NCBI RefSeq assembly: GCF_016793285.1
Contig: NZ_JAEUMO010000063.1
Coordinates: 1 to 48,732 of the forward strand
Source of the DNA: Phenylobacterium sp.
GTDB taxonomy: Bacteria; Pseudomonadota; Alphaproteobacteria; Caulobacterales; Caulobacteraceae
Direction: 5' to 3'
Length of the DNA stretch: 48,732 nt
The stretch's first letter is position 1; each line of letters begins with the position of its first letter. Under the pieces are notes generated by a model. It made no database searches. It was given only the letters and a program-made list of their open reading frames with translations, and was not told the DNA's origin. Both the position numbers and the translations under genes were made by a program. Shown here one piece after another: positions 12,646 to 28,722 of this stretch.

Positions 12646-12714
12646 AGCGAAATGAGCCCCGGCCGCAAGATCGGGGACGACCCGCCGGCCGGGCTGCGGG
12701 CGATCCCTGCGGTT

Positions 12715-12742
12715 GCGGGCCGCCCGTGGTCGGGCGGCCCGC
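12715..12742 (-). terminator. Terminator of the pirin/hydrolase operon
   Basis: Perfect 12-base arms GCGGGCCGCCCG (12715-12726) and CGGGCGGCCCGC (12731-12742) with a 4-base loop, 22 bases beyond the stop of the last operon gene on the minus strand. No T-run follows. Confidence 0.65.
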
Positions 12743-12764
12743 GTCGCTGGACCCTTCTGCGCCT

Positions 12765-13445
12765 CTAGGCCCGGGCCGAGTCGAGCTGTTCGTGGTGGGT
12801 CACCACGTCCTGGGCCTTGCCGTAGCTCTCGATCAGCAACTGATAGGGCGGGAAGATCTTCGTGTAGACCTGCGCCCACTCCGCTGCGTCCTCGCGATGC
12901 CAGGTCTTCTGGAGCTCGGAGGCGACGGCGGCGGTGTCGATCGGGACGACGCCGGCCTGCACGACCCGGGCGAGGGTGATCTCCTGCGCCATCTTCGAAT
13001 AGGTGCCCGAGGCATCCACCACGGCGAACACCTTGTAGCCGGCGTCGACGGCGCTGATCGAGGGGAACGCCATGCACACCGACGTGATCGTGCCGGCGAT
13101 GATCAGCGTCCTGCGCCCTGTCGCCTCGACGGCCGCGACGAAGTCGGGATTGTCCCAGGCGTTGATCTCGCCCTTGCGCGCGACGTACTGCGCGTGCGGG
13201 GCGTTCGCGTGGATTTCGGGGATCATCGGGCCGTTCGGTCCCTGGGGCACCGAGGCGGTGGTGATCACCGGCAGCTTGCAGAGCGTGGCCATCGTGGCGA
13301 GCGCCGCGGCGTGATTGCGCAGCACCGGCATCGGCATGTCGGCGACGGTCTGGAACAGGCCGCTCTGGTGGTCGATCAGCAGCATGGCCGCGTCGTCGGG
13401 GTCGATGACGGGGCGGGCGCCGCCGAAGTTGGCGGGTGGGGACAT
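12765..13445 (-). CDS. YcaC-like cysteine hydrolase (isochorismatase superfamily)
   Basis: A 226-residue protein of the isochorismatase-like fold. D25 ([10 protein letters not shown]) and the cysteine of [12 protein letters not shown] are the superfamily catalytic acid and nucleophile; the [14 protein letters not shown] loop holds the lysine position. The overall layout, including the C-terminal [13 protein letters not shown] segment, matches E. coli YcaC, a hydrolase of unknown substrate. AAGGAG lies before the ATG at 13445. It is the third gene of a minus-strand operon behind another member of the same family, 31 bases away. Confidence 0.87.
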
Positions 13446-15168: not shown

Positions 15169-16095
15169 ATGAACGACCTGAACGACCTCGCCTACCTGGT
15201 CAAAGTGGTCGAGCATCAGGGCTTCGCCCCGGCCGCCCGCGCGCTCGGCATGCAGAAGTCGAAGCTGAGCCGCCGCATCGCCGCGCTGGAGGAGCGGCTG
15301 GGCGTGCGGCTGATCCAGCGCTCGACCCGCAAGTTCTCGGTCACCGACATCGGCCAGTCGTACTACCAGCATTGCCTCGCGATGCTGGTGGAGGCCGAGG
15401 CGGCGCAGGAAGCGATCGACGCCATCCGCGCCGAGCCGGCCGGGCTCATCCGCATCGCCTGTCCGCCGGGCCTGATCGCCTATCGCATGGGCGCGGCCGT
15501 CGCCGGGTTCATGGCGGCGAGTCCCAAGGTCCGTATTCAGCTCAAGGCCTACAACCGCCCGGTCGATATCATCCGCGAAGGCTTCGACGTGGTGATCCGG
15601 ACCGGCGAACCCGGCCCCCAGTCCGGCAGTCTCGTCATGCGCAAGCTGGGCGAGGTCAGCCAGTGCCTGGTCGCGTCTCCCGCGCTGCTGGCGGATCGGC
15701 CGCCGCCGGCGACCCCGTCCGACCTCACGGGCATGCCGGCCATCGGCCTCGGAACGGCCCTCGTGAACGGCGCGGCCGACCATGTCGAGTGGGTGCTGAC
15801 CCACGAGAGCGGCGCGACGGCGCTGATCCCGGCAAAGCCTCGCCTGGTTTCCGACGACCTGGCCGCCCTGCGCGCCGGCGCGCTGGCCGGACTCGGCATC
15901 GTGCAGATGCCCAACCTTATGATCGAGGCCGACCGCCTCGCCGGCCGCCTGGTCACGCTGCTGCCGCAATGGGCCTCGCCCAACCTCCCGGTCCATGCCG
16001 TGTTCCCCTCCCGCCGGGGGCTGCTGCCGTCGATCCGGGCGCTGATCGACCACCTCGCGGGCGACTGCCAGCCCTTCCGGCAGGGGACGCCCTGA
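15169..16095 (+). CDS. LysR family transcriptional regulator
   Basis: A 308-residue regulator. Residues 1-60 form the winged helix-turn-helix (GFAPAARALGMQKSKLSRRIAALEERLG), followed by the periplasmic-binding-protein-like effector domain from about residue 90 (GLIRIACPPGL) to 300. It reads away from the pirin operon and most likely controls it, sensing an unknown small molecule. The ATG at 15169 is chosen because the conserved N-terminus begins there; no strong ribosome site precedes it. Confidence 0.9.
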   Translation: MNDLNDLAYLVKVVEHQGFAPAARALGMQKSKLSRRIAALEERLGVRLIQRSTRKFSVTDIGQSYYQHCLAMLVEAEAAQEAIDAIRAEPAGLIRIACPPGLIAYRMGAAVAGFMAASPKVRIQLKAYNRPVDIIREGFDVVIRTGEPGPQSGSLVMRKLGEVSQCLVASPALLADRPPPATPSDLTGMPAIGLGTALVNGAADHVEWVLTHESGATALIPAKPRLVSDDLAALRAGALAGLGIVQMPNLMIEADRLAGRLVTLLPQWASPNLPVHAVFPSRRGLLPSIRALIDHLAGDCQPFRQGTP

Positions 16096-16240
16096 GCGGA
16101 CCCCTGCGGGCCGCGCCGGACGGTCTCCCGGGCGCGAACCGCGCGCGCGGCGAAGCGACACACGGATTTTCGACGCGACAGGCTGCGCGCGGCGTGGCCA
16201 TGTCGCTAAGGTGCGGCGCTACCTTCCAGAGGAGTGGGAC

Positions 16241-16552
16241 ATGAGCCTTATCAACGGACTGCTCGGACAGCTCGCCGAGAACGTCGACATCGAGAACCTG
16301 GCCCAGAAGATCGGCCTTTCGCCGGAACACGTCGAGCAGGCGGTCAAGGCCCTGGGCGTCGCCCATCATGAGCCGGGCGACACGGCCGAAGCCGCGGCCG
16401 CCACGACCGGCCTGCCGCTGGAGAAGATGCAGGAGATCATCGGTCATATCGGCGGCGAAGGCTCGCTCGGCCGGTTCGCGGAGATGCTGAAGGAACAGGG
16501 CGGGTCCGACCTGCTCGGAAGCCTGGCGTCCGGGCTGCTCGGCCGGAAGTAG
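16241..16552 (+). CDS. DUF937/YidB-like small protein, 103 aa
   Basis: A small, soluble, helical protein: MSLINGLLGQLAENVDIENLAQKIGLSPEHVEQAVKAL, then a second repeat-like helical unit from about residue 55 and the tail LLGSLASGLLGRK. The glycine/leucine pattern and the 'phase-like' helix pairs resemble DUF937 and YidB-type proteins. AGAGGAG at 16228-16234 sets the start at 16241. No function is established; it appears to be a single-gene unit followed by a terminator-like hairpin. Confidence 0.72.
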   Translation: MSLINGLLGQLAENVDIENLAQKIGLSPEHVEQAVKALGVAHHEPGDTAEAAAATTGLPLEKMQEIIGHIGGEGSLGRFAEMLKEQGGSDLLGSLASGLLGRK

Positions 16553-16568
16553 GCGCCGGCGAACCAGC

Positions 16569-16599
16569 GGATGGCTGCGCGGGCGTCCCGCAGCCATCC
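16569..16599 (+). terminator. Terminator-like hairpin
   Basis: Perfect 11-base arms GGATGGCTGCG (16569-16579) and CGCAGCCATCC (16589-16599) with a 9-base loop, 17 bases after the stop of the DUF937-like gene. No T-run follows. Confidence 0.6.
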
Positions 16600-16722
16600 C
16601 CCGGTCGAACGGTCGCCGATCCGCGGGGGTCGCACCTCGGCCTCGACCCGTGCGGCGCGCTGAGGCACGATGGCGCGCTGCGGCAGGCCGGCGCGGGCCG
16701 GGCAGCGGGGGGCCGTTCGACG

Positions 16723-17658
16723 ATGGGGAGGCCTGTTCGACCGGAGGATCCGGCGTTCGGCTGCACGGCCGCCTGGGACCTGATGTTCGAGATGGTCGTG
16801 CTCGGGCGGCGCGAACTCGACTCGCTGGACGCCCTGATCCGGCTCGCCGTCGCCCAGTCCAATCTGGGACCGATCGTCACCGACCACGAGCGTCAGCTCC
16901 GCTACGCGGGGTGGCCGACGAACCCGGGCGACGACGTGCGGCGTCCGATCCGCGTCGCGGCCCTGAGCCGGACGCTCGGCCTTCCGTTCGAGACCGTTCG
17001 CCGCCGGGTGGCGAGGCTCTGCGAGGCGCAGAAGCTGGTCGCGACATCGCGGGGCCTGGTCGTGCCGGCCAAGACCTACGAAACCCAGGGCCACAGGGCG
17101 GTGCTGACCGCCCTCGACCGTGCGCTTCACCGGACCTACCTGCGCCTCCGCGCCAGCGACTTCTTTGTGACGAGCGATCTTCCGGATTCCGAACCGGCGT
17201 CCAGGGCCGTTCCCCTGCGGGCCATGGGGCGGCTTGCCGGGGATTACTACCTGCGGATGCTTCCGTATCTGCAAGCCTGGGCCGGCGACTCGCGCGACGC
17301 GCTGATCCTCCTGTGTGTCCTGCGCATGGATTTCGACGATCCCGGCGACGAGGACGCGACGGCCGCCGAAGGCGAGGGGGCGCAGCCCTTGCGGCCGGGC
17401 CGGGTCGCGCGGCTCCTCGGCCTCTCGCCCGAAACGGTCAGGCGGCGTTTCCACGGGCTGAGCCGCTGCGGCATCTGCAGCCTGCAGGACGGCGGCCTGA
17501 TGCTGCGCCGGGACGTCATGGCCGAGACCGTGATGCCGCAACTTGCCGCGCCGAGCGAAATGAACCTGCGTCGCGTCTTCCGCGCGCTCGCGCGGGTCGG
17601 GGCGACCCGGCGGTGGGAACGCATCGACGACGCGGCCGCGCGGCCGGGCCGGGCCTGA
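16723..17658 (+). CDS. Putative DNA-binding protein with two winged-helix modules
   Basis: A 311-residue soluble protein of no recognised family. Two segments align: residues 78-118 (VAALSRTLGLPFETVRRRVA, then a GLVVP wing) and 226-266 (GRVARLLGLSPETVRRRFHG, then a GLMLR wing). Both look like helix-turn-helix plus wing units of the IclR/Crp general kind. Each is preceded by a helical stretch with a D-x-L-I-L-x-V pattern (residues 33-47 and 190-203), so the protein looks like two copies of a ~150-residue module. It lies 418 bases upstream of the sulfatase gene on the same strand and is the best local regulator candidate. A GGGGGG ribosome-like site precedes ATG 16723. Confidence 0.7.
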   Translation: MGRPVRPEDPAFGCTAAWDLMFEMVVLGRRELDSLDALIRLAVAQSNLGPIVTDHERQLRYAGWPTNPGDDVRRPIRVAALSRTLGLPFETVRRRVARLCEAQKLVATSRGLVVPAKTYETQGHRAVLTALDRALHRTYLRLRASDFFVTSDLPDSEPASRAVPLRAMGRLAGDYYLRMLPYLQAWAGDSRDALILLCVLRMDFDDPGDEDATAAEGEGAQPLRPGRVARLLGLSPETVRRRFHGLSRCGICSLQDGGLMLRRDVMAETVMPQLAAPSEMNLRRVFRALARVGATRRWERIDDAAARPGRA

Positions 17659-18076
17659 TCCGGACGGCCCCCGCGGGCCCGTCGGCAGGCGCGCCGACCC
17701 CTAGTTTACCCATTTTGTGGCCCCGCGACGGCGGCCCTGGAACGCGCCCTCTCGGGGCGGGCGGGAAGCGGACGATGCCGTCGCGCGAAGGACGGCGCGC
17801 GCCTGATCCGGGATATAACTGATTATTTTGCTTCCGGAATTTCCCTCCGGCGTCCAGGTCCGGGTGCGCAGGACGCTGAGATGGCGATCCGAGCAGACGT
17901 TCCGCGCACACCGTCTCCAGCCCCGGATTTCGGGCGCTCGCCGCCGCAGCCTCGCTCCGGCGGGCTTATTGTCGGGTCTGCGGAAGGTTGGCATGTAATG
18001 GATTACATCATTCGGCCGGCGACGCGGTTCTGAAGAAGCCCGCCCGGTTCCGAGCTACCTGTCGGGGGAGGAAGGG
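17659..18076 (+). other. 418-base intergenic region ahead of the sulfatase cluster
   Basis: No supported gene is seen on either strand. The middle (about 17815-17835) is AT-rich compared with its surroundings, and the right end holds a perfect-armed palindrome (separate entry) and a GGGGGAGGAAGGG ribosome site for the sulfatase ATG at 18077. The size and composition fit a regulated promoter region. Confidence 0.6.
17993..18008 (+). promoter_or_regulatory. Palindromic operator-like site upstream of the sulfatase gene
   Basis: ATGTAAT-GG-ATTACAT: 7-base perfect arms with a 2-base spacer, starting 84 bases before the sulfatase ATG. TGTAAT (17994-17999) also resembles a -10 box, and TTGTCG (17969-17974) a -35 box with a long 19-base spacer. 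A dimeric regulator bound here would cover the -10 element. The match is to no specific known box. Confidence 0.5.
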
Positions 18077-20347
18077 ATGCGGGGGGCGCAGGCTTTTCGC
18101 GCAGGATCGCTGTTGCTTGCCGCCTGCCTGGCCGGCGCGCCTTCGATCGGCGCCCACGGCCAGGTCATGGCGTCGCCGTCGCCGGCCGTGGCGGGACGTC
18201 CGATCCGGGCGGCTGACGCGCCGAACGTCGTCCTCATCCTGCTGGACGACGCCGGCTACGCAGCCTCGACGACCTTCGGCGGCTTCGCCGATACGCCGAC
18301 CCTGTCCCGGCTCGCGCAGGAGGGATTGCGCTACACCTCGTTCAACGTCAGCGCGATCTGCTCGCCCACGCGCGCCGCCCTGCTGTCGGGTCGCAACCAG
18401 CATCGCGTCGGGTTCGGAAGCACCCCGGAAGCCTACCGGCCCTATGCCGGCTACAACGGCGTGTGGCCTCGGGAGTCGGCGTCCATCGCCGAGGTGCTGC
18501 GGCGCGCCGGCTACAGCACGGCGGCGTTCGGCAAGTGGCACAACACGCCCTACTGGGAACTCACCCCGACCGGGCCCTTCGACCGATGGCCGACGGGCCT
18601 GGGCTTCGAGCACTTCTACGGCTTCATGATCGGCGAGGTCAGCCAGTGGGAGCCGCCGCTCTACCGCGACACCGCGCCGGTCACGCCCCCCCGCACCGCG
18701 GAGCAGGGCTATCACCTCACGACCGACATCACCGACGAGGCGGTCCAGTGGCTGAGGACGCAGCGCGCCTTCGCCCCCGAGCGGCCCTACTTCCTCTATT
18801 TCGCCCCCGGCGCGCCGCACAAGCCGCACCATGTGCCGGCCGACTGGATCGCGCGCTACAAGGGGCGGTTCGACCGCGGCTGGGACGTGCTCCGGCAGGA
18901 GACGTTCGAGCGTCAGAAGCAGCTCGGCGTCATCCCCTCCGAGGCCCGCCTGACGCCCCGGCCGCCGGAGATCCCGGCGTGGTCGGCGCTGTCGCCCGAC
19001 GAGCAACGGCTCGCCGCGCGGCAGATGGAGGTCTACGCCGCGTTCCTCGCCCACACCGACGCCGAGATCGGTCGCCTGATCCAGGCGGTCCGCAGCCGGC
19101 CGGACGGCGAGAACACGCTCATCCTGTATGTGGCCAGCGACAACGGCGCCAGCGCGATGGACGGCGTCCTGGGCTCCAACGACACCCACGCCCCGCCGAC
19201 CCCGGTCGCCGAGCAGCTCGCGCAGATCGACGAGCTGGGCGGGCCCGACCACCTGAACGCCTACGCGGCCGGCTGGGCCTGGATGAACAGCACGCCGTTC
19301 CAGTGGACCAAGGGCATCGCGTCGCATTGGGGCGGCACGCGCGCGCCGCTGGTGGCGTCGTGGCCCCGCCGCATCGCCGGGCGGGGCGAGGTCCGAACCC
19401 AGTTCGCCTACGCCACGGACATCGCCGCCACGGTGTACGACGCGGCCGGGATCGATCCGCGCAGACCGATCGACGGGATCGCGCAGACCGCCCTCGACGG
19501 CGTGAGCCTGCTGCGCACCTTCGCCGACGCGCGGGCCGCCTCGCCGCGGCGCACGCAGTACTTCGAGAACTGGGGCAGCCGCGCGATCTACCGCGACGGC
19601 TGGGTGGCCGGCGTTCGGATGGTCGGCCAGAACCTCGGCGAGAACATCCGCCGCGGCCCGGCGCCGGGCGCCCAGACGTGGGAACTCTACGACGTCGCGC
19701 ATGACTTCAGCCAGGCGCAGGACCTCGCCGCGGCCCGTCCGGGCAAGCTGAAGGAGCTCCAGGCCGCGTTCGACGCGGAAGCCCGCCGCAACGGCGTGTA
19801 CCCGATCGAGACGCCCAACGTGCGCTACGCCCCGCCCTCGCCGATCGCCGGGCGCACGTCCTTCGTCTACTTCCCGGGCGCCCCGTGGACCAGCTATCGG
19901 GCGCTTCCGAGCCTGAGCCGGCCGCACGCCATCGAGGTCACGGCCGAGGTTCACGGCGCGCCCAGCGGCGTGCTGGTCAGCCACGGCAGCCGCCTGGGCG
20001 GGTTCGTCCTCTATGTGCGGGACGGACGCGTCGTCTATGAGAACAACGCCGCCGGCCGCCGCCGCGTGCGCCTCGAGGCGCCCGGTCCGCTGCCGGACGG
20101 CGAGGTCCGGATCCGCTTCGAGATGCACGGCGCCGCCGCGCCGGGGGCCCCGTTCTCCGGGCAGGGCGCACTCTTCGTCAACGGCCGGCAGGTCGCCAAC
20201 GGTCCTCTCGGCCCGATCACCGACCCGGCCTACGACGCGGCCAGCTTCAGCGTCGGCGAAGCCCGGATCTCGCCCGTGAGCCGCGCCATGCCGCTGCCGT
20301 CGCGGTTCGAGGGACGGATCGCGCAGGTGGAGGTCGAGCTCCGCTGA
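18077..20347 (+). CDS. Arylsulfatase, formylglycine-dependent, probable lipoprotein
   Basis: A 756-residue type I sulfatase. C95 in C-S-P-T-R (95-99) is the cysteine converted to formylglycine, within the full signature CSPTRAALLSG; D57/D58 (LLDDAGY) and the later SDNGAS segment supply metal ligands, and GKWH is the conserved lysine motif. It most resembles the Pseudomonas AtsA-like arylsulfatase group, with a beta-rich C-terminal domain (about 620-756). LLAAC at residues 13-17 is a good lipobox, so it is probably anchored in the periplasm; cleavage near residue 30 by signal peptidase I is an alternative. It hydrolyses a sulfate ester. No formylglycine-generating enzyme gene is in the window. 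Confidence 0.92.
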   Translation: MRGAQAFRAGSLLLAACLAGAPSIGAHGQVMASPSPAVAGRPIRAADAPNVVLILLDDAGYAASTTFGGFADTPTLSRLAQEGLRYTSFNVSAICSPTRAALLSGRNQHRVGFGSTPEAYRPYAGYNGVWPRESASIAEVLRRAGYSTAAFGKWHNTPYWELTPTGPFDRWPTGLGFEHFYGFMIGEVSQWEPPLYRDTAPVTPPRTAEQGYHLTTDITDEAVQWLRTQRAFAPERPYFLYFAPGAPHKPHHVPADWIARYKGRFDRGWDVLRQETFERQKQLGVIPSEARLTPRPPEIPAWSALSPDEQRLAARQMEVYAAFLAHTDAEIGRLIQAVRSRPDGENTLILYVASDNGASAMDGVLGSNDTHAPPTPVAEQLAQIDELGGPDHLNAYAAGWAWMNSTPFQWTKGIASHWGGTRAPLVASWPRRIAGRGEVRTQFAYATDIAATVYDAAGIDPRRPIDGIAQTALDGVSLLRTFADARAASPRRTQYFENWGSRAIYRDGWVAGVRMVGQNLGENIRRGPAPGAQTWELYDVAHDFSQAQDLAAARPGKLKELQAAFDAEARRNGVYPIETPNVRYAPPSPIAGRTSFVYFPGAPWTSYRALPSLSRPHAIEVTAEVHGAPSGVLVSHGSRLGGFVLYVRDGRVVYENNAAGRRRVRLEAPGPLPDGEVRIRFEMHGAAAPGAPFSGQGALFVNGRQVANGPLGPITDPAYDAASFSVGEARISPVSRAMPLPSRFEGRIAQVEVELR

Positions 20348-20441
20348 GACGGCGTCGGCCCGGCGCGCGCAGGCCGGATCCACAAGCCCAATTTTCACAA
20401 CCGGCCCGCTCCCGGGCGGCCGGACAGGAGAGGAAACCATC

Positions 20442-22721
20442 ATGACGATTCGGCATCTGCTCGCCACGCCGGCATCCCTGTTGCTGCTTTCGTCGGCGCT
20501 GCCGGCGCTCGCCGCCGAGACGGCCGACGCGGGCGACGAGACCGCGGCCGGCGCCATCGAGGAGGTCGTTGTGACCGCCCGGCGGCGGGAGGAGGCGCTG
20601 CAGAAGGTCCCCGTCGCGGTATCGGTGGTCTCGGCGGCGGCCCTGGCGCGGCAGAACATCCAGTCCGTGGTCGAACTCGAGCGCGCCGTGCCGGGCCTCT
20701 CCAGTCAGGGTCAGACGCGGGACAACGTCTCCGTCAGCATCCGCGGCCAGGGCACGGGCCAGCAGGCCAGCCTGCCGGGCGTGCTGATCTACCTCAACGA
20801 GGTGCCCATCCCCTACGACCAGCTCGGCCAGTCCGTCGCCGGGCCGGGCCTCTACATGGACCTCCAGAACGTCCAGGTGCTCAAGGGGCCGCAGGGCACG
20901 CTGTTCGGCCGCAACTCCGTCGGCGGCGCCATCCTGCTTCAGACGCAACGGCCGGGGCCGGAGTTCGGCGGCAGGATCCAGGTCGGCGTCGGAAACTACG
21001 CGAACCGCGAACTCGACGCCGCGCTCAACGTGCCGCTGGCCGGCGAGAAGCTCGTGCTGCGGCTCGCCGCCAGGGCCCAGGACCGCAAGGGCTTCACCAG
21101 GCTGCTCGCCGAACCCAGCCATCCGGGGGGCTTGCGGATGGACGACGTGAACTACTGGTCGCTCCGGGGCACGCTGTCCTGGCGCGCCTCCGACAGCGTT
21201 ACCAACACGCTGACCCTGGAGCACCTGGATTCCGAGAACAACGGCACGTCCTATGTTCTGCACCGCCTCAATCCCGCTGGAAACGCCGCCGTCCGCTATC
21301 CCGGTCTGGCCGCGCAGTTCGCGCAGCAGCAGGCGCTGGGTATCCGTACCCGCATCGCCAGCAGCCTGGACAATTCGTCTACTCGAAAATACACGTTCCT
21401 GACGAACGTCACCGAATTCGAAGTCTCCGAAAACATCTCGGTGAAGAACATATTCGGGTACATGTCGGCCCACAGGCAGTATTCGCTCGAAGCCGACGGC
21501 TCGCCGTTCCCCGTCAGCGAGTTCGCTCAGCCGCCGGGCGAAACCTTCCGGTTCAACCAGTACAGCGAGGAACTCCAGATCCATGGGGTCGCCTTCGACG
21601 GGCGTCTCGACTGGATCGTAGGCGGGCTCTACCTCAAGAATCCGACCCCGGGCTTCTACAACCGGCCGGCGATCACGTTCGGCGCGACCGTCATCAACGC
21701 GTCTCGCTTCGGCTCCGAGAGCAAGGGCCTCTACACCCAGGGCACCTATGACCTGGGCGACCTCGTGGAGGGCCTGAAGTTCACCGGCGGGTTCCGTTAC
21801 ACCTGGGACCGTCGCTTCGCCCAGTCGCGGGGGCTGAACGCCGCCGGGGTCTGCGTCAATCCGCCGGCCTCCGCGGACGCCCGCTGCACGCTGACGGGCG
21901 ACACGAGGACCGAGGCGCCGACCTGGACCGTGGGGCTGGACTGGCAGGCGACGCCGCAGGTGATGGTGTACGGGGTCAGCCGCCGCGGCTACCGCGCCGG
22001 CGGATACAACGCCCTCAATCCGAACATCGTCACGGACAACCGTTTCTTCGATCCGGAGTACGTCACCGACTACGAAGTCGGACTCAAGGCCGACTGGCGC
22101 GTGGGGTCCGTTCCGATCCGGACCAACATCGCCCTCTACCACCAGGACTACAGCGACATCCAGGTGACCGAGGTCCGGTTCGTGAACGGCCAGCAGTTCA
22201 ACTCGACCAGCAACGCCGGGGCGGCGCGCATCAACGGCGGGGAACTGGAGGCGACCGCGAACCTGACGCCGGATCTGCAGGTCGGTGGCTTCCTCAGCTA
22301 CATCGACTTCGCCTACACGAAGTTCGCGCCGGGTGCGAACGCCGCCAGCCTCCGCGCCCAGGAGACCGCGAACCGCCCGGTGCATCAGTACGGCCTGAAC
22401 GCCCGCCACCGCCTCCCGCTGCCGCCGTCCGCGGGCGAGGGCTCAGTGTTCGCCAACTGGTCCTGGCGCGACGACGCGGGCAACACCTCGCTTCGCGACG
22501 GCGTCATCCCGTCGTACGGTCTTCTCTCCGCGGGCGCCGAGTGGAACGACGTCGCGGGCAGCGGCTGGGACGCGGCCATCTTCGCGACCAACATCCTGAA
22601 CAAGGACTATGTGGTGGCCCTGAGCGCGGCGTTCGAGACGAACGGCTACACCAGCTACAGCTATGGCGAGCCGCGCATGTTCGGCGTGCGGTTGCGCTAC
22701 CGCTTCGGCGGCGAGCGCTGA
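20442..22721 (+). CDS. TonB-dependent outer-membrane receptor, sulfatase-linked
   Basis: A 759-residue receptor. The signal peptide ends near residue 25 (PALA-AE), followed by a TonB box-like EEVVVTARRREE. The plug runs to about residue 170 (VQVLKGPQGTLFGRNSVGGAI), then the 22-strand barrel. The last residues are RLRYRFGGER, so the usual terminal aromatic residue is four positions from the end. GGAGAGGAAA precedes ATG 20442. Position between a sulfatase and a PQQ dehydrogenase suggests that it imports the sulfate ester or a related substrate; this is inference. The family (CirA/Fiu-like carbohydrate, steroid and siderophore receptors of sphingomonads and caulobacters) does not fix the ligand. 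Confidence 0.9.
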   Translation: MTIRHLLATPASLLLLSSALPALAAETADAGDETAAGAIEEVVVTARRREEALQKVPVAVSVVSAAALARQNIQSVVELERAVPGLSSQGQTRDNVSVSIRGQGTGQQASLPGVLIYLNEVPIPYDQLGQSVAGPGLYMDLQNVQVLKGPQGTLFGRNSVGGAILLQTQRPGPEFGGRIQVGVGNYANRELDAALNVPLAGEKLVLRLAARAQDRKGFTRLLAEPSHPGGLRMDDVNYWSLRGTLSWRASDSVTNTLTLEHLDSENNGTSYVLHRLNPAGNAAVRYPGLAAQFAQQQALGIRTRIASSLDNSSTRKYTFLTNVTEFEVSENISVKNIFGYMSAHRQYSLEADGSPFPVSEFAQPPGETFRFNQYSEELQIHGVAFDGRLDWIVGGLYLKNPTPGFYNRPAITFGATVINASRFGSESKGLYTQGTYDLGDLVEGLKFTGGFRYTWDRRFAQSRGLNAAGVCVNPPASADARCTLTGDTRTEAPTWTVGLDWQATPQVMVYGVSRRGYRAGGYNALNPNIVTDNRFFDPEYVTDYEVGLKADWRVGSVPIRTNIALYHQDYSDIQVTEVRFVNGQQFNSTSNAGAARINGGELEATANLTPDLQVGGFLSYIDFAYTKFAPGANAASLRAQETANRPVHQYGLNARHRLPLPPSAGEGSVFANWSWRDDAGNTSLRDGVIPSYGLLSAGAEWNDVAGSGWDAAIFATNILNKDYVVALSAAFETNGYTSYSYGEPRMFGVRLRYRFGGER

Positions 22722-22722
22722 C

Positions 22723-24882
22723 GTGCGCGGGAAGGTCCGAGCGCCTTGGCGGAGCCGCCGCGCGGCGGCGGTTCGGGCTGGCGCCGCCCTGGCGGCGACG
22801 CTGCTCGGAGGTTGCGCCCTGGCGGCCTCGGGCGCGGCCGACTGGCCGGCATACGGCGGCAACCCGCAGGGCGACCGCTACTCGTCCCTCCGTCAGATCG
22901 CCCCCGGCAACGTGGCCGGGCTGCGGGAGGTCTGGCGGTACGCGACCGGGCCGGGCGACCTGCAGACCTCGCCGCTGATCGTGGACGGCGTGCTCTACGG
23001 CGTGACGCCGGATCAGGTCGTCTTCGCCCTCGACGCCGGCTCGGGCCGCGAACTCTGGACCCATGCGCCCCGGATCCGGAACCGCCAGCCGGTCCGCGGC
23101 CTGAGCTACTGGCGGGACGGCGCCCGGCGGCGGCTGTTCACGAGCCACGGGTCCTTCCTGACCGCGCTCGACCCGCAGACCGGCCGGCCCGCGGCCGAGT
23201 TCGGGGTCGGGGGAACGATAGACCTCCGGGAAGGGCTCGGCCGCGATCCTGCGACGCTCCCGGTGTTCATGACGACGCCCGGCGTGATCTACCGCGACCT
23301 GCTGATCGTGGGGTTCCGGACCTCCGAGACCGCGCCGGCGGCGCCCGGCGCGGTGCGCGCCTACGACGTCCGGAGCGGCCGTCTCGTATGGACCTTCAAC
23401 CTCCTGCCGCGGCCCGGCGAGGCGGGATCGGAGACATGGCCCAGGGACGCCGGCTCGACGGCCGGCGGCGCCAACGCCTGGGCCGGCATGGCGCTGGATG
23501 CGCGACGCGGCATCGTCTACGCGCCGACCGGCTCGGCGGTCGACGACTTCTACGGGGGCGATCGCCGCGGCGACAACCTGTTCGCCAATTCGCTGGTCGC
23601 GCTGGACGCGGCGACCGGGCGGAGGCTCTGGCACTTCCAGGCGGTCAGGCATGACATCTGGGATCGCGACTTCCCCTCTCCGCCGCTGTTGCTGACGGTG
23701 CGGCGGAACGGCCGCGCCGTCGACGCGGTCGCGCAGCCCACCAAGCAGGGGGTCCTCTACCTCTTCGACCGGGTGTCCGGCCGGCCCCTGTTCCCCGTCG
23801 AAGAGCGATCCGCGTCGCCCAGCGACGTCCCGGGCGAACACGCCGCGCCCAGCCAGCCGCACCCCACGCTCCCGCTGCCGTTTGCGCGGCAGGCGCTGAC
23901 CGCGGAGATGCTGACGCGGCGCACGCCGCAGGCGGCGGCCGCCGCCAGGGCCGAGTTTGCGCGCCTTCGGAACGGCGGGCCGTTCACCCCGCTGGCCGTG
24001 GGCGCCCAGACCGTCGTGTTCCCGGGCTTCGACGGCGGCGCGGAATGGGGCGGTCCGGCCGCCGATCGGCGCCGGGGCGTCATCTATATCAACAGCAACG
24101 ACATCGCCTGGACCGGCGGCCTGGCCGGCGCCGGACCCGCGGAGGATCCCGCCGCGGCGCTCTACCGGAGCCAGTGCGCGAACTGCCACGGCGCCGAGCG
24201 CGAGGGCGCGCCCGGCTTCCCGAGCCTGGCGGGTCTGCGCCAGCGCCTCTCCCGCCAGGAGATCGAGAGCATCGTCGTGCAGGGGCGAGGGCGGATGCCC
24301 GGCTTTCCGCAGATCGGCCGACAGGCGCTGGACCGGCTCCTCGACCACCTCCTCGACCAGGCCGGCGAGCCGGGCCGCGAACTCTCCGGGCCGGTTCCGG
24401 CGGCGCCGCGCCGCTTCACGTTCACGGGCTATCGCAAGTTCCTCGACCCGGACGGCTACCCCGCCGTGGAGCCGCCCTGGGGCACGCTCAACGCCATCGA
24501 CCTGAACACGGGCGCGTACCTCTGGCGCATCCCGCTCGGAGAATACCCAGAGCTGGCGTCCCAGGGCGTGCGCGACACCGGATCGGAGAACTACGGCGGT
24601 CCCATCGTCACGGCCAGCGGGCTCCTGTTCATCGGCGCCACGATCCGCGACCGCAAGCTGCGGGCGTTCGACGCCAGGACCGGCAAGCTGCTGTGGCAGG
24701 CGCTCCTGCCCTACGCAGGCGCCGCGACTCCGGCGACCTACCAGGCGAACGGCCGCCAGTTCGTCGTCATCGCGACCAGCGGGCAGCGCGATCCCAAGGG
24801 GCTGAAGGGGTCCGCCTACGTCGCCTTCGCCTTACCCGGTCCCGGCGCCGGCCCGGAGCGGAACACGCCCGGAGCGAAGTGA
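22723..24882 (+). CDS. PQQ-dependent dehydrogenase with inserted cytochrome c domain
   Basis: A 719-residue quinohemoprotein starting at GTG 22723, one base after the receptor stop. Residues 25-31 (TLLGGC) form a lipobox with C31. The eight-bladed PQQ propeller begins at DWPAYGGN; W-motifs (VWRYATGPG, LWTHAP, VWTFNL, LWHFQAV, YLWRIPL, LLWQALL) recur throughout. Between blades, residues 475-550 hold a cytochrome c domain with C485-x-x-C488-H489 and a probable axial M525 (GRMPG). The chain then returns to the propeller, so the cytochrome is inserted, not fused at an end. It should oxidise an alcohol, sugar or aldehyde in the periplasm and hand electrons to the chain. The substrate is unknown. 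Confidence 0.9.
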   Translation: MRGKVRAPWRSRRAAAVRAGAALAATLLGGCALAASGAADWPAYGGNPQGDRYSSLRQIAPGNVAGLREVWRYATGPGDLQTSPLIVDGVLYGVTPDQVVFALDAGSGRELWTHAPRIRNRQPVRGLSYWRDGARRRLFTSHGSFLTALDPQTGRPAAEFGVGGTIDLREGLGRDPATLPVFMTTPGVIYRDLLIVGFRTSETAPAAPGAVRAYDVRSGRLVWTFNLLPRPGEAGSETWPRDAGSTAGGANAWAGMALDARRGIVYAPTGSAVDDFYGGDRRGDNLFANSLVALDAATGRRLWHFQAVRHDIWDRDFPSPPLLLTVRRNGRAVDAVAQPTKQGVLYLFDRVSGRPLFPVEERSASPSDVPGEHAAPSQPHPTLPLPFARQALTAEMLTRRTPQAAAAARAEFARLRNGGPFTPLAVGAQTVVFPGFDGGAEWGGPAADRRRGVIYINSNDIAWTGGLAGAGPAEDPAAALYRSQCANCHGAEREGAPGFPSLAGLRQRLSRQEIESIVVQGRGRMPGFPQIGRQALDRLLDHLLDQAGEPGRELSGPVPAAPRRFTFTGYRKFLDPDGYPAVEPPWGTLNAIDLNTGAYLWRIPLGEYPELASQGVRDTGSENYGGPIVTASGLLFIGATIRDRKLRAFDARTGKLLWQALLPYAGAATPATYQANGRQFVVIATSGQRDPKGLKGSAYVAFALPGPGAGPERNTPGAK

Positions 24883-25025
24883 CGCGCCCGCCGCGCGACC
24901 GCCGCTTCGCCGCCTCCGTGCCAATACCTATGGAGCGCACCCGAATGGCGACGGGGGCGCCATCGGCGCTACTCCCCCTCCCGCAGAGCCGCGGCGTTCG
25001 CGGCCTGCGGTAACCGGAGTATCCC

Positions 25026-25718
25026 ATGCTGAAGCCTGCCGTCGACCTTGCTGTCGCCCATCGTCCGCGCGGTGTTTCCGACCGCCTGGCCTACGGATTC
25101 GTCAAGGCGCTGCGCTTCTGCGCCGACACGTTCTTCGCGAAGCGCTACGGCCACCGGGCGGTAGTCCTCGAGACCGTCGCGGCGGTTCCAGGCATGGTGG
25201 GCGCCACCCTCAACCACCTGAAGTGCCTTCGCCGCATGTGCGACGATCGCGGGTGGATCAAGACGCTCATGGACGAGGCCGAAAACGAGCGCATGCACCT
25301 CATGACCTTCATCGAGGTCGCCAAGCCCACCGCCTTCGAGCGCTTCGTGGTCCTGGCCGCGCAGTGGATCTTCTACCTGTTCTTCTTCGGCCTCTATCTG
25401 ATCTCGCCCAGGACGGCGCATCGGGTCGTCGGCTACTTCGAGGAAGAGGCGGTGATCAGCTACACCCACTACCTCGCGGAGATCGACGAGGGTCGCTCGG
25501 AGAACGTCCCCGCTCCCGCCGTCGCGGTGCGCTACTGGAACCTGCCGGCCGACGCGACGCTTCGCGACGTGGTGGAGGTCGTCCGCGCCGACGAAGCCCA
25601 TCACCGCGACGTGAACCACGGCTTCGCCAACGAGCTGGCGGGCCTGGCCGAACCTCGCCTCATCCCCGCCGTGTGGCCCCACAAGCAGCTCCAGCCGCAT
25701 TGGCGCGAGGCGGCCTGA
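25026..25718 (+). CDS. aox: Alternative oxidase (diiron ubiquinol oxidase)
   Basis: A 230-residue member of the AOX family known from mitochondria and a limited set of bacteria. All diiron ligands are visible: E49 ([10 protein letters not shown]), E88 and H91 (ENERMHL), a glutamate of E139-E141 ([13 protein letters not shown]), and E190 with H193 ([11 protein letters not shown]). Two hydrophobic helices (residues 50-65 and 108-128) insert in one membrane leaflet. The enzyme oxidises ubiquinol with O2 to water without pumping protons and resists cyanide. GGAG precedes ATG 25026. It follows the PQQ dehydrogenase by 143 bases and precedes a hairpin, so it probably belongs to the same cluster. 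Confidence 0.95.
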
Positions 25719-25726
25719 CGACGTCC

Positions 25727-25779
25727 GGTCCCGCCTTGCCCGCGTGGCCGGGAAGCCGGCGCGACGGGCGAGGCGGACC
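25727..25779 (+). terminator. Branched terminator-like structure after the alternative oxidase
   Basis: Arms GGTCCCGCCTTGCCCG (25727-25742) and CGGGCGAGGCGGACC (25765-25779) pair with one bulge and one mismatch; inside lies a second hairpin (GCCGG/CCGGC). It begins 9 bases after the stop codon. The remaining bases up to 25982 hold no supported gene. Confidence 0.5.
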
Positions 25780-25982
25780 GCATCCCGCGGCCGTCCGCCC
25801 GTCGCCGGCCGGCCCGTCCCGCCGCTGACGGTGGCTTTCGTCGTCGCCGCGTCCTACAACTCGTCCTACGAGATCGCTCCGGACGCGTAGGCGTCGGACG
25901 CGACGCGCTGGATGCCGCGACTTCGATACTGTCCTGAAGTCGCTGGCGAAATGGAACGGGAAGAGACCTCCTGAAACAGCCC

Positions 25983-26678
25983 TTGTCCTTCTGGCGCAAG
26001 ATTGCCGGCCTTGCGGCGCGCAAGGTCGACGAGGCGGAATGCGACGTCTGCCCGCCCGGTCTGCCGGGCGAGGATCCGGCCTTCTCGACGGCGGTCACGG
26101 CGCTCGGGGCCAAGCTCGCCAAGGCCGACGGCGAGGCGCAGGCCGCCGAGTACGACGCCTTCCACTCGATCTTCCAGGCCGAGGCGGGCAGCGAGGGCGC
26201 GATCCGCCGCCTCTACCAGTTGGCCCGCCAGACCACCCGCGGCTTCGAAGGCTACGCGCGGCGCCTGCGCAAGCGCTACGGCGCCTGCCCGCAACTGCTG
26301 GAGGACGTGCTGGACGGCCTCTTCCACATCGCCGCCTCGGACGGCGTGGTGACCGCCGACGAACTGGCGTACCTGGAGCGGGTCGGCGAGCTCTTCGGGC
26401 TCTCGCCGCTCACCTTCCGGCGCCTGAAGGCCGTTCACCTCGGCGCGGCCAACGACGACCCCTATGTGATCCTGGGCGTCGCGCCCGACGCCGGCGACGA
26501 GGCCGTGCGAGCCGCGTGGCGCAGCCAGCTCTCCGAAGCCCATCCGGACCGGGTCCGCGCCCGCGGCCTCCCGGACGAGTTCGTCGAGGTGGCCGAGGCC
26601 AAGGCGTCGGCCATCAACGCGGCTTTCACCACCATCCAGCGGGAGCGCGCGGCGATGGCGCGCGCCGGCGCGGCATGA
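25983..26678 (+). CDS. TerB-DnaJ domain protein (DjlA-like)
   Basis: A 231-residue soluble protein starting at TTG 25983 (no in-frame ATG upstream). Residues 33-150 form a helical TerB-like domain (LAKADGEAQAAEYDAF and FHIAASDGVVTADELAYLERV repeats). Residues 158-228 form a J domain with the HPD tripeptide at 187-189, which would stimulate the ATPase of DnaK. E. coli DjlA has the same domains plus a membrane anchor; no anchor is present here. The ribosome site is weak. Confidence 0.88.
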   Translation: MSFWRKIAGLAARKVDEAECDVCPPGLPGEDPAFSTAVTALGAKLAKADGEAQAAEYDAFHSIFQAEAGSEGAIRRLYQLARQTTRGFEGYARRLRKRYGACPQLLEDVLDGLFHIAASDGVVTADELAYLERVGELFGLSPLTFRRLKAVHLGAANDDPYVILGVAPDAGDEAVRAAWRSQLSEAHPDRVRARGLPDEFVEVAEAKASAINAAFTTIQRERAAMARAGAA

Positions 26679-26781
26679 CCGCCCAAATTCGGCCGCGCGC
26701 CGCATCCACGGTTGACGGCTGGAACCGCTGTGCTGACATAGGTCTTTCTCGGACGCCCAGGCGCCGCTGAGGAGCTCGAAA

Positions 26782-27072
26782 TTGGTCAAGGACTTCGCCG
26801 CGAATCCGGGTTCCGCCCTTCGCAGCCTTGCCGCCGTCCTCGCCACGCTCGCCACCGCCGCCGCGGTGGTCGTGGGGGCCGTCCTCGCCGTCTTCGCCGC
26901 CGCCACGGTGGCGGTGATCGCGATCGTGGGCTCGCTCCTGCTGGCGCTTTCGGGCCTCGCGCTCCGCGCCCGCCGCACGGTGCGCGCCCGCGCCCGCGGC
27001 AGCGACATCATCGAAGCCCGTCACCAGGGCGGCCACCACTGGGTGGCCTACGGCTGGAACGAGCGCCGCTAA
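26782..27072 (+). CDS. Small membrane protein, 96 aa
   Basis: TTG start at 26782 behind a good GAGGAG at 26770-26775. Residues 15-65 are strongly hydrophobic and alanine/valine-rich (two closely spaced helices), followed by an arginine-rich segment and a C-terminal tail with HHWVAYGWNERR. The layout fits a small inner-membrane protein with a cytoplasmic tail. No family is recognised with certainty. Confidence 0.7.
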   Translation: MVKDFAANPGSALRSLAAVLATLATAAAVVVGAVLAVFAAATVAVIAIVGSLLLALSGLALRARRTVRARARGSDIIEARHQGGHHWVAYGWNERR

Positions 27073-27150
27073 AGGACCTGCGCCCCCATAGCAGCGGCGG
27101 TTGGCGCGACGTCAGCCTTGCCCGTCCGCGCCCGCCTCTCTACCGTCCGT

Positions 27151-27166
27151 TCAAACAGTCGTTGGA
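27151..27166 (+). promoter_or_regulatory. Operator-like inverted repeat, copy A
   Basis: TCAAAC-AGTC-GTTGGA, an inverted repeat with one mismatch from TCAAAC-N4-GTTTGA, just upstream of the ABM monooxygenase start. The same core AAACAGTCGTT occurs upstream of the NADH:flavin oxidoreductase gene at 31900-31910. TetR-family regulators of lipid and xenobiotic catabolism commonly use such sites. Confidence 0.45.
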
Positions 27167-27176
27167 GGGATGGAAG

Positions 27177-27470
27177 ATGTCGGTCGGTATCGTGGCCACG
27201 ATGAAGATCCAGGAAGGCAAGAACGCCGAGTTCGAGGCCTTCTTCACCGAGCTGGCCAAGCAGGTCCGCGCCAATGAGCCGGGCAACCTGATGTACCAGC
27301 TCACCAAGAGCCGGAAGGACCCGCAGGAGTACAAGGTCCTGGAGCTCTACAAGGACCAGGACGCGGTTTCCGTCCACGGCCAGACCGAGTACTTCAAGGC
27401 CGCCGGGCCGAAGTTCGCCGGCGTGCTGGCCGGGCGGCCGGACGTCGAGCTGCTGGACGGCGTGGGCTGA
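27177..27470 (+). CDS. ABM-domain quinol monooxygenase-like protein
   Basis: A 97-residue antibiotic-biosynthesis-monooxygenase fold protein: VGIVATMKIQEGKNAEFEAF is the typical first strand and helix, EPGNLMYQL and KVLELYKDQDAVSVHGQTEYFK the later conserved parts with the H-x-x-T/S-x-x-F pattern. Relatives such as YgiN act on quinols, and others serve in catabolic operons. ATG 27177 is preceded by GGAGGG. It is followed 28 bases later by an acyl-CoA dehydrogenase gene, likely co-transcribed. Confidence 0.87.
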   Translation: MSVGIVATMKIQEGKNAEFEAFFTELAKQVRANEPGNLMYQLTKSRKDPQEYKVLELYKDQDAVSVHGQTEYFKAAGPKFAGVLAGRPDVELLDGVG

Positions 27471-27498
27471 AGGCGTAGACAGACTGGGAGACGACACG

Positions 27499-28722
27499 AT
27501 GGACCTGGACTTCGCCCCTGAGGATCTCGCGTTCCGCGACGAGGTCCGGGCCTTCATCGCCGAAGCGTTCGACGACGACATGCGGGCCAAGCTCGCCCAG
27601 TCGAAGAACAACCACCTCGACAAGGAGGCCCAGGTCCGCTGGCTGAAGCGGCTCGGCGACAAGGGCTGGATCGCGCCCGACTGGCCGGAGGAGTACGGCG
27701 GCACCGGGTGGGGCCTCGGCAAGAAGTACGTCTTCGACATGGAGATGGCGCTGGCCGGCGCGCCGTCGACGTCGAACATGGGCCTGAAGATGTGCGCGCC
27801 CGTCGTGATGGCCTTCGGCACCGACGAGCAGAAGAAGCAGCACCTCCCGAAGATCCTCTCCACCGACGTCTGGTGGTGCCAGGGCTACTCCGAGCCGGGC
27901 TCGGGCTCCGACCTCGCCTCGCTGGCGCTGAAGGCCGAGCGCGACGGCGACCACTATGTCCTGAACGGGTCGAAGACGTGGACGACCCTGGCCCAGTGGG
28001 CCGACTGGATGTTCTGCCTGGTGCGCACCTCGAACGAGGACATCCGCCAGAAGGGCATCTCGTTCCTCCTGATCGACATGCGCACGCCGGGCATCACCAT
28101 CCGGCCGATCCCGACGCTCGACGGGCCGCCCGAAGGCGAGCAGGAGATCAACGAGACCTTCTTCGACAACGTCCGCGTGCCGGTCTCCAACCGCATCGGC
28201 AAGGAAGGCGAGGGCTGGACCTACGCCAAGTACCTGCTGCAGTTCGAGCGCGGCAACGCCTACGCGCCGGGCCTTTCGGCGCAGATGAAGAAGGTCCGCA
28301 CGATCGCCAACCTGGAGCGCGCCGACGGCGGCGGCTCGATGATGAGCGACCCCGACTTCCGCAAGAAGCTCAGCGAGGTCGAGATCAAGGTCGAGGCGCT
28401 GAACGCCACCGAGCTGCGCATCTTCGCCGGCCGCGCCAACGGCGACGCCATGGGCGCCGTGTCGTCCATGCTGAAGCTGGAAGGCTCCCAGATGCAGCAG
28501 GCGATCACCGAGCTCGCGCTCGAGGCCGCCGGCGTCTACGCCCAGCCCTTCGTGCAGGACACCTGGGAGATGCTCCGCCCCGGCGGCAACACCTTCCGCG
28601 CCGGCCCCGACTACGCGGCCACCGTCGCCCCGCACTACTTCAACTACCGCAAGACCTCGATCTACGCCGGCTCCAACGAAATCCAGCACAACATCATGGC
28701 CAAGATGGTGCTTGGGCTCTGA
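27499..28722 (+). CDS. Acyl-CoA dehydrogenase family protein
   Basis: A 407-residue flavoprotein with the three ACAD domains: N-terminal helices (1-125; PEEYGGTGWG), middle beta domain (126-235; YSEPGSGSDLASL contacts FAD) and C-terminal helices with the YAGSNEIQHNIMAKMVLGL ending. The length and the KSRL-free helical core resemble the FadE17/FadE26-type enzymes of steroid and branched acyl-CoA breakdown, but the acyl substrate cannot be fixed. GGGAG precedes ATG 27499. Neighbouring P450 and ene-reductase genes support a role in degrading a lipid- or terpene-like compound. Confidence 0.93.
   Translation: MDLDFAPEDLAFRDEVRAFIAEAFDDDMRAKLAQSKNNHLDKEAQVRWLKRLGDKGWIAPDWPEEYGGTGWGLGKKYVFDMEMALAGAPSTSNMGLKMCAPVVMAFGTDEQKKQHLPKILSTDVWWCQGYSEPGSGSDLASLALKAERDGDHYVLNGSKTWTTLAQWADWMFCLVRTSNEDIRQKGISFLLIDMRTPGITIRPIPTLDGPPEGEQEINETFFDNVRVPVSNRIGKEGEGWTYAKYLLQFERGNAYAPGLSAQMKKVRTIANLERADGGGSMMSDPDFRKKLSEVEIKVEALNATELRIFAGRANGDAMGAVSSMLKLEGSQMQQAITELALEAAGVYAQPFVQDTWEMLRPGGNTFRAGPDYAATVAPHYFNYRKTSIYAGSNEIQHNIMAKMVLGL

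Follow-up and report, generated by a model that had tools for sequence, protein, structure and literature searches.

The stretch at 16723-25779 of a Phenylobacterium sp. contig (NZ_JAEUMO010000063.1; assembly GCF_016793285.1) raises the question of why a sulfatase, a TonB-dependent receptor and a pyrroloquinoline quinone (PQQ)-type quinohemoprotein dehydrogenase are encoded side by side, between a regulator and an alternative oxidase (AOX). The sequence-only reading of the window (the whole 48,732-nucleotide stretch analysed) had answered with a module of all five genes, in which capture, desulfation and oxidation act on a sulfated sterol, lipid or aromatic alcohol, AOX discharges the electrons and the adjacent regulator is in control. 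Here, we argue with moderate confidence for another answer, in which the genes at 18077-24882 would form a three-gene operon for a sulfated carbohydrate, under a LacI-family repressor encoded in trans (G000:C145:42832-43830, G000 being the window's genome) and acting via a palindrome at 17993-18008. The five plus-strand open reading frames (ORFs), in the order proposed, were borne out by ORF coordinates and Pfam domains; those of the operon, with the elements tied to them, are as follows.

18077-20347, plus strand: formylglycine (FGly)-type sulfatase P0002, with CSPTR at 18359-18373 and a C-terminal extension (PF00884, 1e-58)
20442-22721, plus strand: TonB-dependent outer-membrane receptor P0003 (Pfam plug, 8.2e-17; barrel, 2.1e-31)
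22723 (GTG)-24882, plus strand: quinohemoprotein dehydrogenase P0004 (Pfam PQQ propeller and cytochrome c)
24145-24351, plus strand: inserted cytochrome c with CANCHG, between propeller parts (PF13442, 7.5e-11; P0004 residues 495-563)
17993-18008, no strand assigned: operator ATGTAATGGATTACAT, a perfect inverted repeat of two 7-bp arms around a 2-bp spacer

The 1-base gap described between receptor and dehydrogenase agrees with a receptor stop ending at 22721 and a GTG at 22723, but the true dehydrogenase start is unsure because the longest ORF begins at 22663 and overlaps the receptor gene.

Conservation of the three central genes

The comparison set comprised 199 genomes of the same family. 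One of them, from the same genus (G113), keeps sulfatase, receptor and dehydrogenase adjacent and in the same order at 74, 81 and 68% identity, respectively (the receptor over residues 38-759). In another genus (G057), the sulfatase adjoins the dehydrogenase (55% and 56% identity) in a cluster that also holds a GPH sugar symporter. The dehydrogenase lies in the same cluster as the sulfatase in the window, G113 and G057, and the three sulfatases form one clade (support 100/100, tree of 30). Because the order is the same in G113 and the sulfatase stands beside the dehydrogenase also in G057, this comparison supports the view that the three genes belong together. In G113, AOX and the regulator are not kept with these three; adjacency alone can mislead, two of the five clustered genes being probably outsiders.

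Several observations weigh against the proposed operon. The complete trio is known from two genomes only, and the receptor beside the G057 pair is unrelated to P0003 (21%). A BVMO-like (Baeyer-Villiger monooxygenase-like) and an SDR-like (short-chain dehydrogenase/reductase-like) gene, recognised by eye, lie near the G113 trio. A scan of named genomes, covering the best 80 of 508 dehydrogenase loci, gave this sulfatase and receptor at a single locus (L159); this sulfatase was not found at the other 79, many of which are cut by contig ends, and weak partial sulfatase matches (21-26%) were present at two of these loci. Judged from these genomes, the trio is rare. A transposase-like gene (L119:5862-6581, by eye) adjoins the dehydrogenase end of the G113 trio.

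Operator palindrome and probable LacI regulon

A palindrome had been reported in the long region before the sulfatase, and the 418-bp gap does hold the repeat at 17993-18008. The operator is 16 bp long and separated by 68 bases from the sulfatase ATG; the window holds no other site within 3 mismatches (expected, 0.02). Its exact 16-mer occurs in G000 at the trio promoter only and in G113 likewise at the trio promoter only, there in two copies 23 bp apart (MAFFT alignment of the two upstream regions left the operators unaligned; a pattern search located both). Near-copies of ATGTAATGGATTACAT flank the LacI-family gene G000:C145:42832-43830, and the sites within 2 mismatches in G000 number four: the trio site, two around this LacI gene and one at a TonB receptor gene on C78. 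G113 has five such sites: two at the trio promoter, one before a divergent xylose-isomerase-like gene beside the trio, one ~900 bp upstream of the G113 LacI match, and one overlapping the first codon of a gene for a 3-keto-disaccharide hydrolase, from which a GMC gene diverges.

The motif follows this LacI family. Within 3 mismatches and 10-160 bp upstream, it was found in 27 of the 30 best LacI matches (0 of 30 in both reversed and shuffled controls), which are related to one another and so not independent. With the limit set at 2 mismatches and the whole locus counted, 13 of the 30 LacI loci had the motif (15 sites in 118 kb); the AOX loci (384 kb) had 2 sites, the dehydrogenase loci (1187 kb) had 1, and the regulator (73 kb) and sulfatase (141 kb) loci had none. 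Reliance was placed on sites with 0-2 mismatches because those with 3 were near background in some genomes (sites, with the reversed control in parentheses: G000, 6 [2]; G113, 19 [1]; G136, 7 [6]; G166, 4 [2]; G085, 57 [21]). The available text of PMC4052901 describes LacI-family operators as mostly even palindromes of 16-22 bp, usually with a central CG and with other centres in a minority of cases, over three quarters of them lying 30-140 bp upstream, and most characterised regulators of the family as sensing sugars. ATGTAATGGATTACAT agrees with these traits in being an even 16-bp palindrome 68 bases upstream, and the presence of the motif before the LacI genes themselves would fit autoregulation.

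In G000, shared motif sites would place the trio in one regulon with the LacI gene, an MFS gene and the isomerase/GMC genes. Pfam domains at the C145 locus are LacI, MFS, AP_endonuc_2, GMC and Gluconate_2-dh3, and those on G113 contig C24 are 3keto-disac_hyd, GMC and Gluconate_2-dh3. The sections available of PMC9007349 describe periplasmic oxidation of lactose to 3-keto-lactose by LacABC of Caulobacter and propose a DUF1080 protein as the hydrolase; in those of PMC10628242, 3-keto-glycoside cleavage in Agrobacterium is the work of a protein annotated as a sugar phosphate isomerase, and another protein probably hydrates the cleavage product.

The G136 LacI protein is 95% identical, with two sites around its gene and none other within 2 mismatches. 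In G113, a broken LacI fragment lies between the trio and the isomerase gene; it shares 46% identity with the C145 protein over 59 residues, and there is a further short piece in a different frame. At L123-L125, a LacI relative (52-54%) stands by a related dehydrogenase, and 2-mismatch sites occur ~5 kb beyond it, by an MFS gene; the dehydrogenase gene at L126 has a 2-mismatch site immediately before it.

Against the tie between trio and repressor stand the operator centres (GG/CC in the trio, GC at the C145 sites and CG in most LacI promoters read) and the G057 contig, on which no operator was found within 2 mismatches; genome-wide, neither G057 nor G152 has a site within 1 mismatch. The site on C78 overlaps the start codon of its receptor gene, which lies among sulfatase genes, and this site and that of the G113 hydrolase, both over start codons with similar codons, may be coding coincidences. 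The LacI family itself, matched at 1e-40 in 120 of the 199 genomes, is far wider than the trio, which on this account looks like at most an add-on to an older LacI regulon. The C78 receptor gene belongs to a second sulfatase-rich locus (G000:C78:1-12000, L256), with three sulfatase genes and another LacI gene.

Enzymes, substrate and PQQ supply

In the operon that we favour, the LacI repressor would occupy the operator without inducer and be released by a sugar ligand. A small sulfated sugar or glycoside would pass the outer membrane through the TonB receptor, and the sulfatase, once formylglycine-matured, would strip the sulfate. The quinohemoprotein would oxidise a hydroxyl or aldose carbon, passing electrons via its own haem c to a periplasmic cytochrome c and not directly to ubiquinol, and the oxidised sugar would be processed further either along a 3-keto-glycoside route, made up of the regulon's GMC/gluconate-2-dehydrogenase-like and xylose-isomerase-like steps, or along an aldonate route. 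Capture, desulfation and oxidation, as first proposed, are retained here as the natural reading of the three genes, but the discharge of electrons by AOX is not.

The sulfatase carries CSPTR at residues 95-99, the C-x-P-x-R maturation motif of FGly (type I) sulfatases, and FGE-family genes are present in G000. Residues D57, D58, K153, H155, H248, D355, N356 and K412 are invariant in five sequences, including that of the window; their active-site and metal roles are presumed from AtsA. The best Protein Data Bank (PDB) chains were 7all, 4cxs and 1hdh. Two of these are identified in the available parts of PMC10154620 and PMC5066984, 7all as BT4683 (S1_4, listed as 3S-Gal, i.e., 3-O-sulfated galactose) and 1hdh as AtsA of Pseudomonas aeruginosa PAO1 (S1_4). 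Compared with these two best solved relatives, the window sulfatase has ~180 residues beyond the aligned part.

The dehydrogenase P0004 is 35% identical to Escherichia coli Gcd and keeps D466, K493, N607 and W404, which we take to be catalytic or PQQ-site residues; the H262 stretch is missing, no counterpart of the Gcd N-terminal membrane domain appears in the alignment and a cytochrome c is inserted. Against TIGR03074 (glucose/quinate/shikimate dehydrogenase), P0004 scored 434 bits, below the cut-off of 832.65. Its PQQ-type sequence runs on to about residue 708, past the cytochrome (495-563), the two Cys and the His of the haem motif are invariant in 27 aligned rows, and its N-terminus has a lipobox-like LLGGC (by eye). 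An AlphaFold2 model (mean predicted local distance difference test score, 80.4; predicted template modelling score, 0.84) gave PQQ dehydrogenases as top Foldseek matches, at ~20% identity and with no substrate indicated. Among the top six were type II quinohemoprotein alcohol dehydrogenases (1kb0, 1yiq and 1kv9), which likewise have a PQQ propeller and haem c in one chain, but the haem domain is inside the propeller in P0004 and C-terminal in the 1yiq alignment (20-21% identity), which sets P0004 apart from type II.

A carbohydrate is likelier than the sterol, lipid or aromatic alcohol first suggested because the operator is of LacI type, the regulon genes are of 3-keto-glycoside type, the G057 cluster holds a GPH symporter and 3S-Gal is the listed substrate of 7all, the nearest solved sulfatase. 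Among candidate substrates, a galactoside is weakly favoured. The contexts of P0004 relatives in G013, G103 and G023, which fall within the same 16-row clade (100/97), give hints of galactose oxidation: the G013 and G103 clusters hold a 2-dehydro-3-deoxy-6-phosphogalactonate aldolase (NF006600, above cut-off), G013 has DgoK, all three have an aldose epimerase, and SGL lactonase genes are present in the G103 and G023 clusters. Weighing against these hints, the tree does not place the window P0004 next to these relatives, and several PQQ genes share those clusters; weighing against a sugar substrate more widely, the sulfatase is equally close to AtsA, of a group known on aryl sulfates. At L127, L128 and L129, several PQQ dehydrogenase genes stand in clusters with genes of the galactose-oxidation type (phosphogalactonate aldolase, DgoK, aldose epimerase and SGL lactonase). 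Reading a substrate from dehydrogenase neighbours across phyla was tried and abandoned, the contexts being too varied (BLAST on the best 80 of 508 loci, 9 by eye).

Closest to this reading is one with a sulfated aryl or flavonoid glycoside as substrate, prepared by sulfatase and quinohemoprotein for the 3-keto-glycoside cleavage of the regulon. In the available text of PMC9007349 and PMC10628242, phenolic glycosides, among them salicin and phlorizin, are substrates of 3-keto routes, the sulfatase is also close to AtsA, and a xylose-isomerase-like gene with its own motif site stands beside the G113 trio promoter; however, none of the C145 genes read was recognised as serving aromatic degradation and 3S-Gal is what the nearest solved sulfatase is listed for, and we regard this substrate as unlikely, if the best of the alternatives.

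PQQ supply poses a difficulty for the operon. No pqqC (TIGR02111) was found in G000, and pqqE (TIGR02109) gave only weak matches, below cut-off, in G000 and G113. Among 60 same-genus genomes, which do not include G113, pqqC was present in one, G152 (1 of 45 among the good ones), and, of seven genomes searched for pqqE, G152 alone exceeded the cut-off. For pqqC, G152 also provides the sole positive control, 14 control genomes having given no match; pqqE gave weak matches in all control genomes, and pqq genes other than these two were not sought. With G000 96.9% complete in 271 contigs, a missed pqq gene is possible. Matches to a PQQ-propeller query (E <= 0.001, distant matches included) were found in 38 of 39 same-genus genomes, including that of the window. 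The dehydrogenase may need external PQQ, and the genus poses the question of where a bacterium with such enzymes, yet apparently without the genes to make PQQ, obtains it.

Import of PQQ by P0003 itself for the adjacent dehydrogenase would be compatible with our account of the other two genes, and both the pqqC and pqqE results and the precedent of E. coli PqqU, a TonB receptor for PQQ (available text of PMC12124388), favour it. The same text gives Tyr, Phe or Trp at position 99 as part of the PqqU signature, but the main alignment of P0003 covers only the plug (32% over 160 columns), and by hand count an Ala faces Tyr99; P0003 is disfavoured as a PQQ importer on these grounds, and we think the idea improbable. 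The barrel, which holds Arg304 and Arg365 in PqqU, did not align.

A bolder and less likely reading would place the operon in a PQQ-scavenging lineage that would desulfate sulfated galactosides in the periplasm and then oxidise them with a quinohemoprotein related to membrane-bound glucose dehydrogenase (mGDH) before uptake, LacI wiring this to 3-keto-glycoside catabolism as one induced pathway. No description of such a sulfated-galactoside/quinoprotein pathway was found in open-access full-text literature, subscription papers being mostly not covered. If true, it would link sulfatases to quinoprotein sugar oxidation under one sugar-type repressor, with a testable operator and regulator.

Flanking genes and known systems

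Outside the proposed operon, the following features complete the 16723-25779 stretch.

16723-17658, plus strand: helix-turn-helix (HTH) regulator P0001 (Pfam HTH stretches), judged outside the unit
25026-25718, plus strand: alternative oxidase P0005 (PF01786, 8.5e-84), judged outside the unit
25719-25850, plus strand: GC-rich hairpin region after AOX, without a T tail (fold energy), outside the unit

The hairpin described after the last gene exists as a GC-rich fold (-83.1 kcal/mol; mean of shuffled sequences, -72.9; z, -2.55), but no T-tailed terminator-like site follows AOX. A pattern scan of 15500-27500 gave none on the plus strand after AOX or between dehydrogenase and AOX, the sole plus-strand site being 17951-17964, between regulator and sulfatase; with 3 sites in all against 4.5 expected in shuffles, the scan is weak evidence either way. 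Elsewhere in the window, 8980-13077 (minus strand) is one 1365-residue ORF with hydantoinase A and B (oxoprolinase) domains.

P0005 has the PF01786 domain and an ADEAHH stretch aligned to 9m2a, and the AOX stretches presumably hold the diiron ligands. An AOX match was found in 58 of the 199 genomes, including that of the window. None was found in G113, which keeps the trio, and the trio was present at none of 20 AOX loci read with wide flanks, out of 57 other AOX genomes; AOX was rejected as a module part on these results, which do not support its supposed role as electron sink. P0001 has a best match of 36% elsewhere in the 199 genomes, and 19 of its relatives, read by eye from the first residues with ~1.5 kb on either side, showed no recognisable sulfatase gene nearby; P0001 was rejected as the controller that had been supposed. 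From these comparisons, AOX and P0001 are probably bystanders.

Four of the 20 AOX loci have a gene of one family directly after AOX; its member at L139 gave a match (1.2e-17) to the structure of a group III truncated haemoglobin. All four rank within the top five AOX matches from genomes other than the window's, and the window itself holds no match to this gene. The genes, all directly after AOX, are:

L139:9861-10274, group III truncated-haemoglobin-like gene
L140:1576-1983, group III truncated-haemoglobin-like gene
L141:9825-10238, group III truncated-haemoglobin-like gene
L143:9377-8964, group III truncated-haemoglobin-like gene

Some loci tell against the separation of AOX from the other genes. 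A PQQ protein of mGDH-like size lies ~2 kb from AOX in G164 (L148; 32-44%) and G173 (G173:C23:249974-253698; 35%), possibly a real PQQ-AOX neighbourhood, unlike that of the window; L156 has partial sulfatase (33%) and receptor (27%) matches ~7.5-9 kb from AOX, and G108 has a 39% sulfatase 10 kb away. The five-gene module as a whole can draw on the G164 and G173 genes (~35%), on its adjacent, co-directional genes with no terminator-like site between dehydrogenase and AOX, on nearest solved dehydrogenases that are alcohol dehydrogenases and on the name arylsulfatase for AtsA. It is nevertheless very unlikely, given the lack of an AOX match in G113 and of the trio at the 20 AOX loci read, the haemoglobin gene that takes the next place in four of them, the dehydrogenase's own haem c, which would point to cytochrome c rather than ubiquinol, and the sugar-type regulon.

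An operon for sulfur scavenging, in which the sulfatase would serve sulfate starvation and the receptor import sulfate esters, presumably as in the Pseudomonas sft/ats systems, where a sulfatase is paired with a TonB receptor as here, is made very doubtful by an operator of the sugar-type LacI family and by a dehydrogenase that sulfur supply leaves unexplained.

The proposed three-gene operon under LacI control resembles the Caulobacter lacABC/DUF1080 system in its dehydrogenase, predicted here to oxidise a sugar in the periplasm before cleavage (available text of PMC9007349). The regulon appears to hold similar kinds of genes (GMC and a gluconate-2-dehydrogenase-like subunit), and the G113 3-keto-disaccharide hydrolase is of the DUF1080 family PF06439; a difference from lacABC is that genes for a sulfatase, a receptor and a PQQ quinohemoprotein carry the motif here as well. 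Carbohydrate utilisation loci, defined by a receptor, degradative enzymes, an inner-membrane transporter and a regulator in one regulon, include sulfatase-bearing polysaccharide loci among those with TonB receptors. With these, the window operon has in common a TonB receptor, a sulfatase and sugar-type control, and it differs from them in having neither SusD nor a glycoside hydrolase and in carrying a PQQ dehydrogenase.

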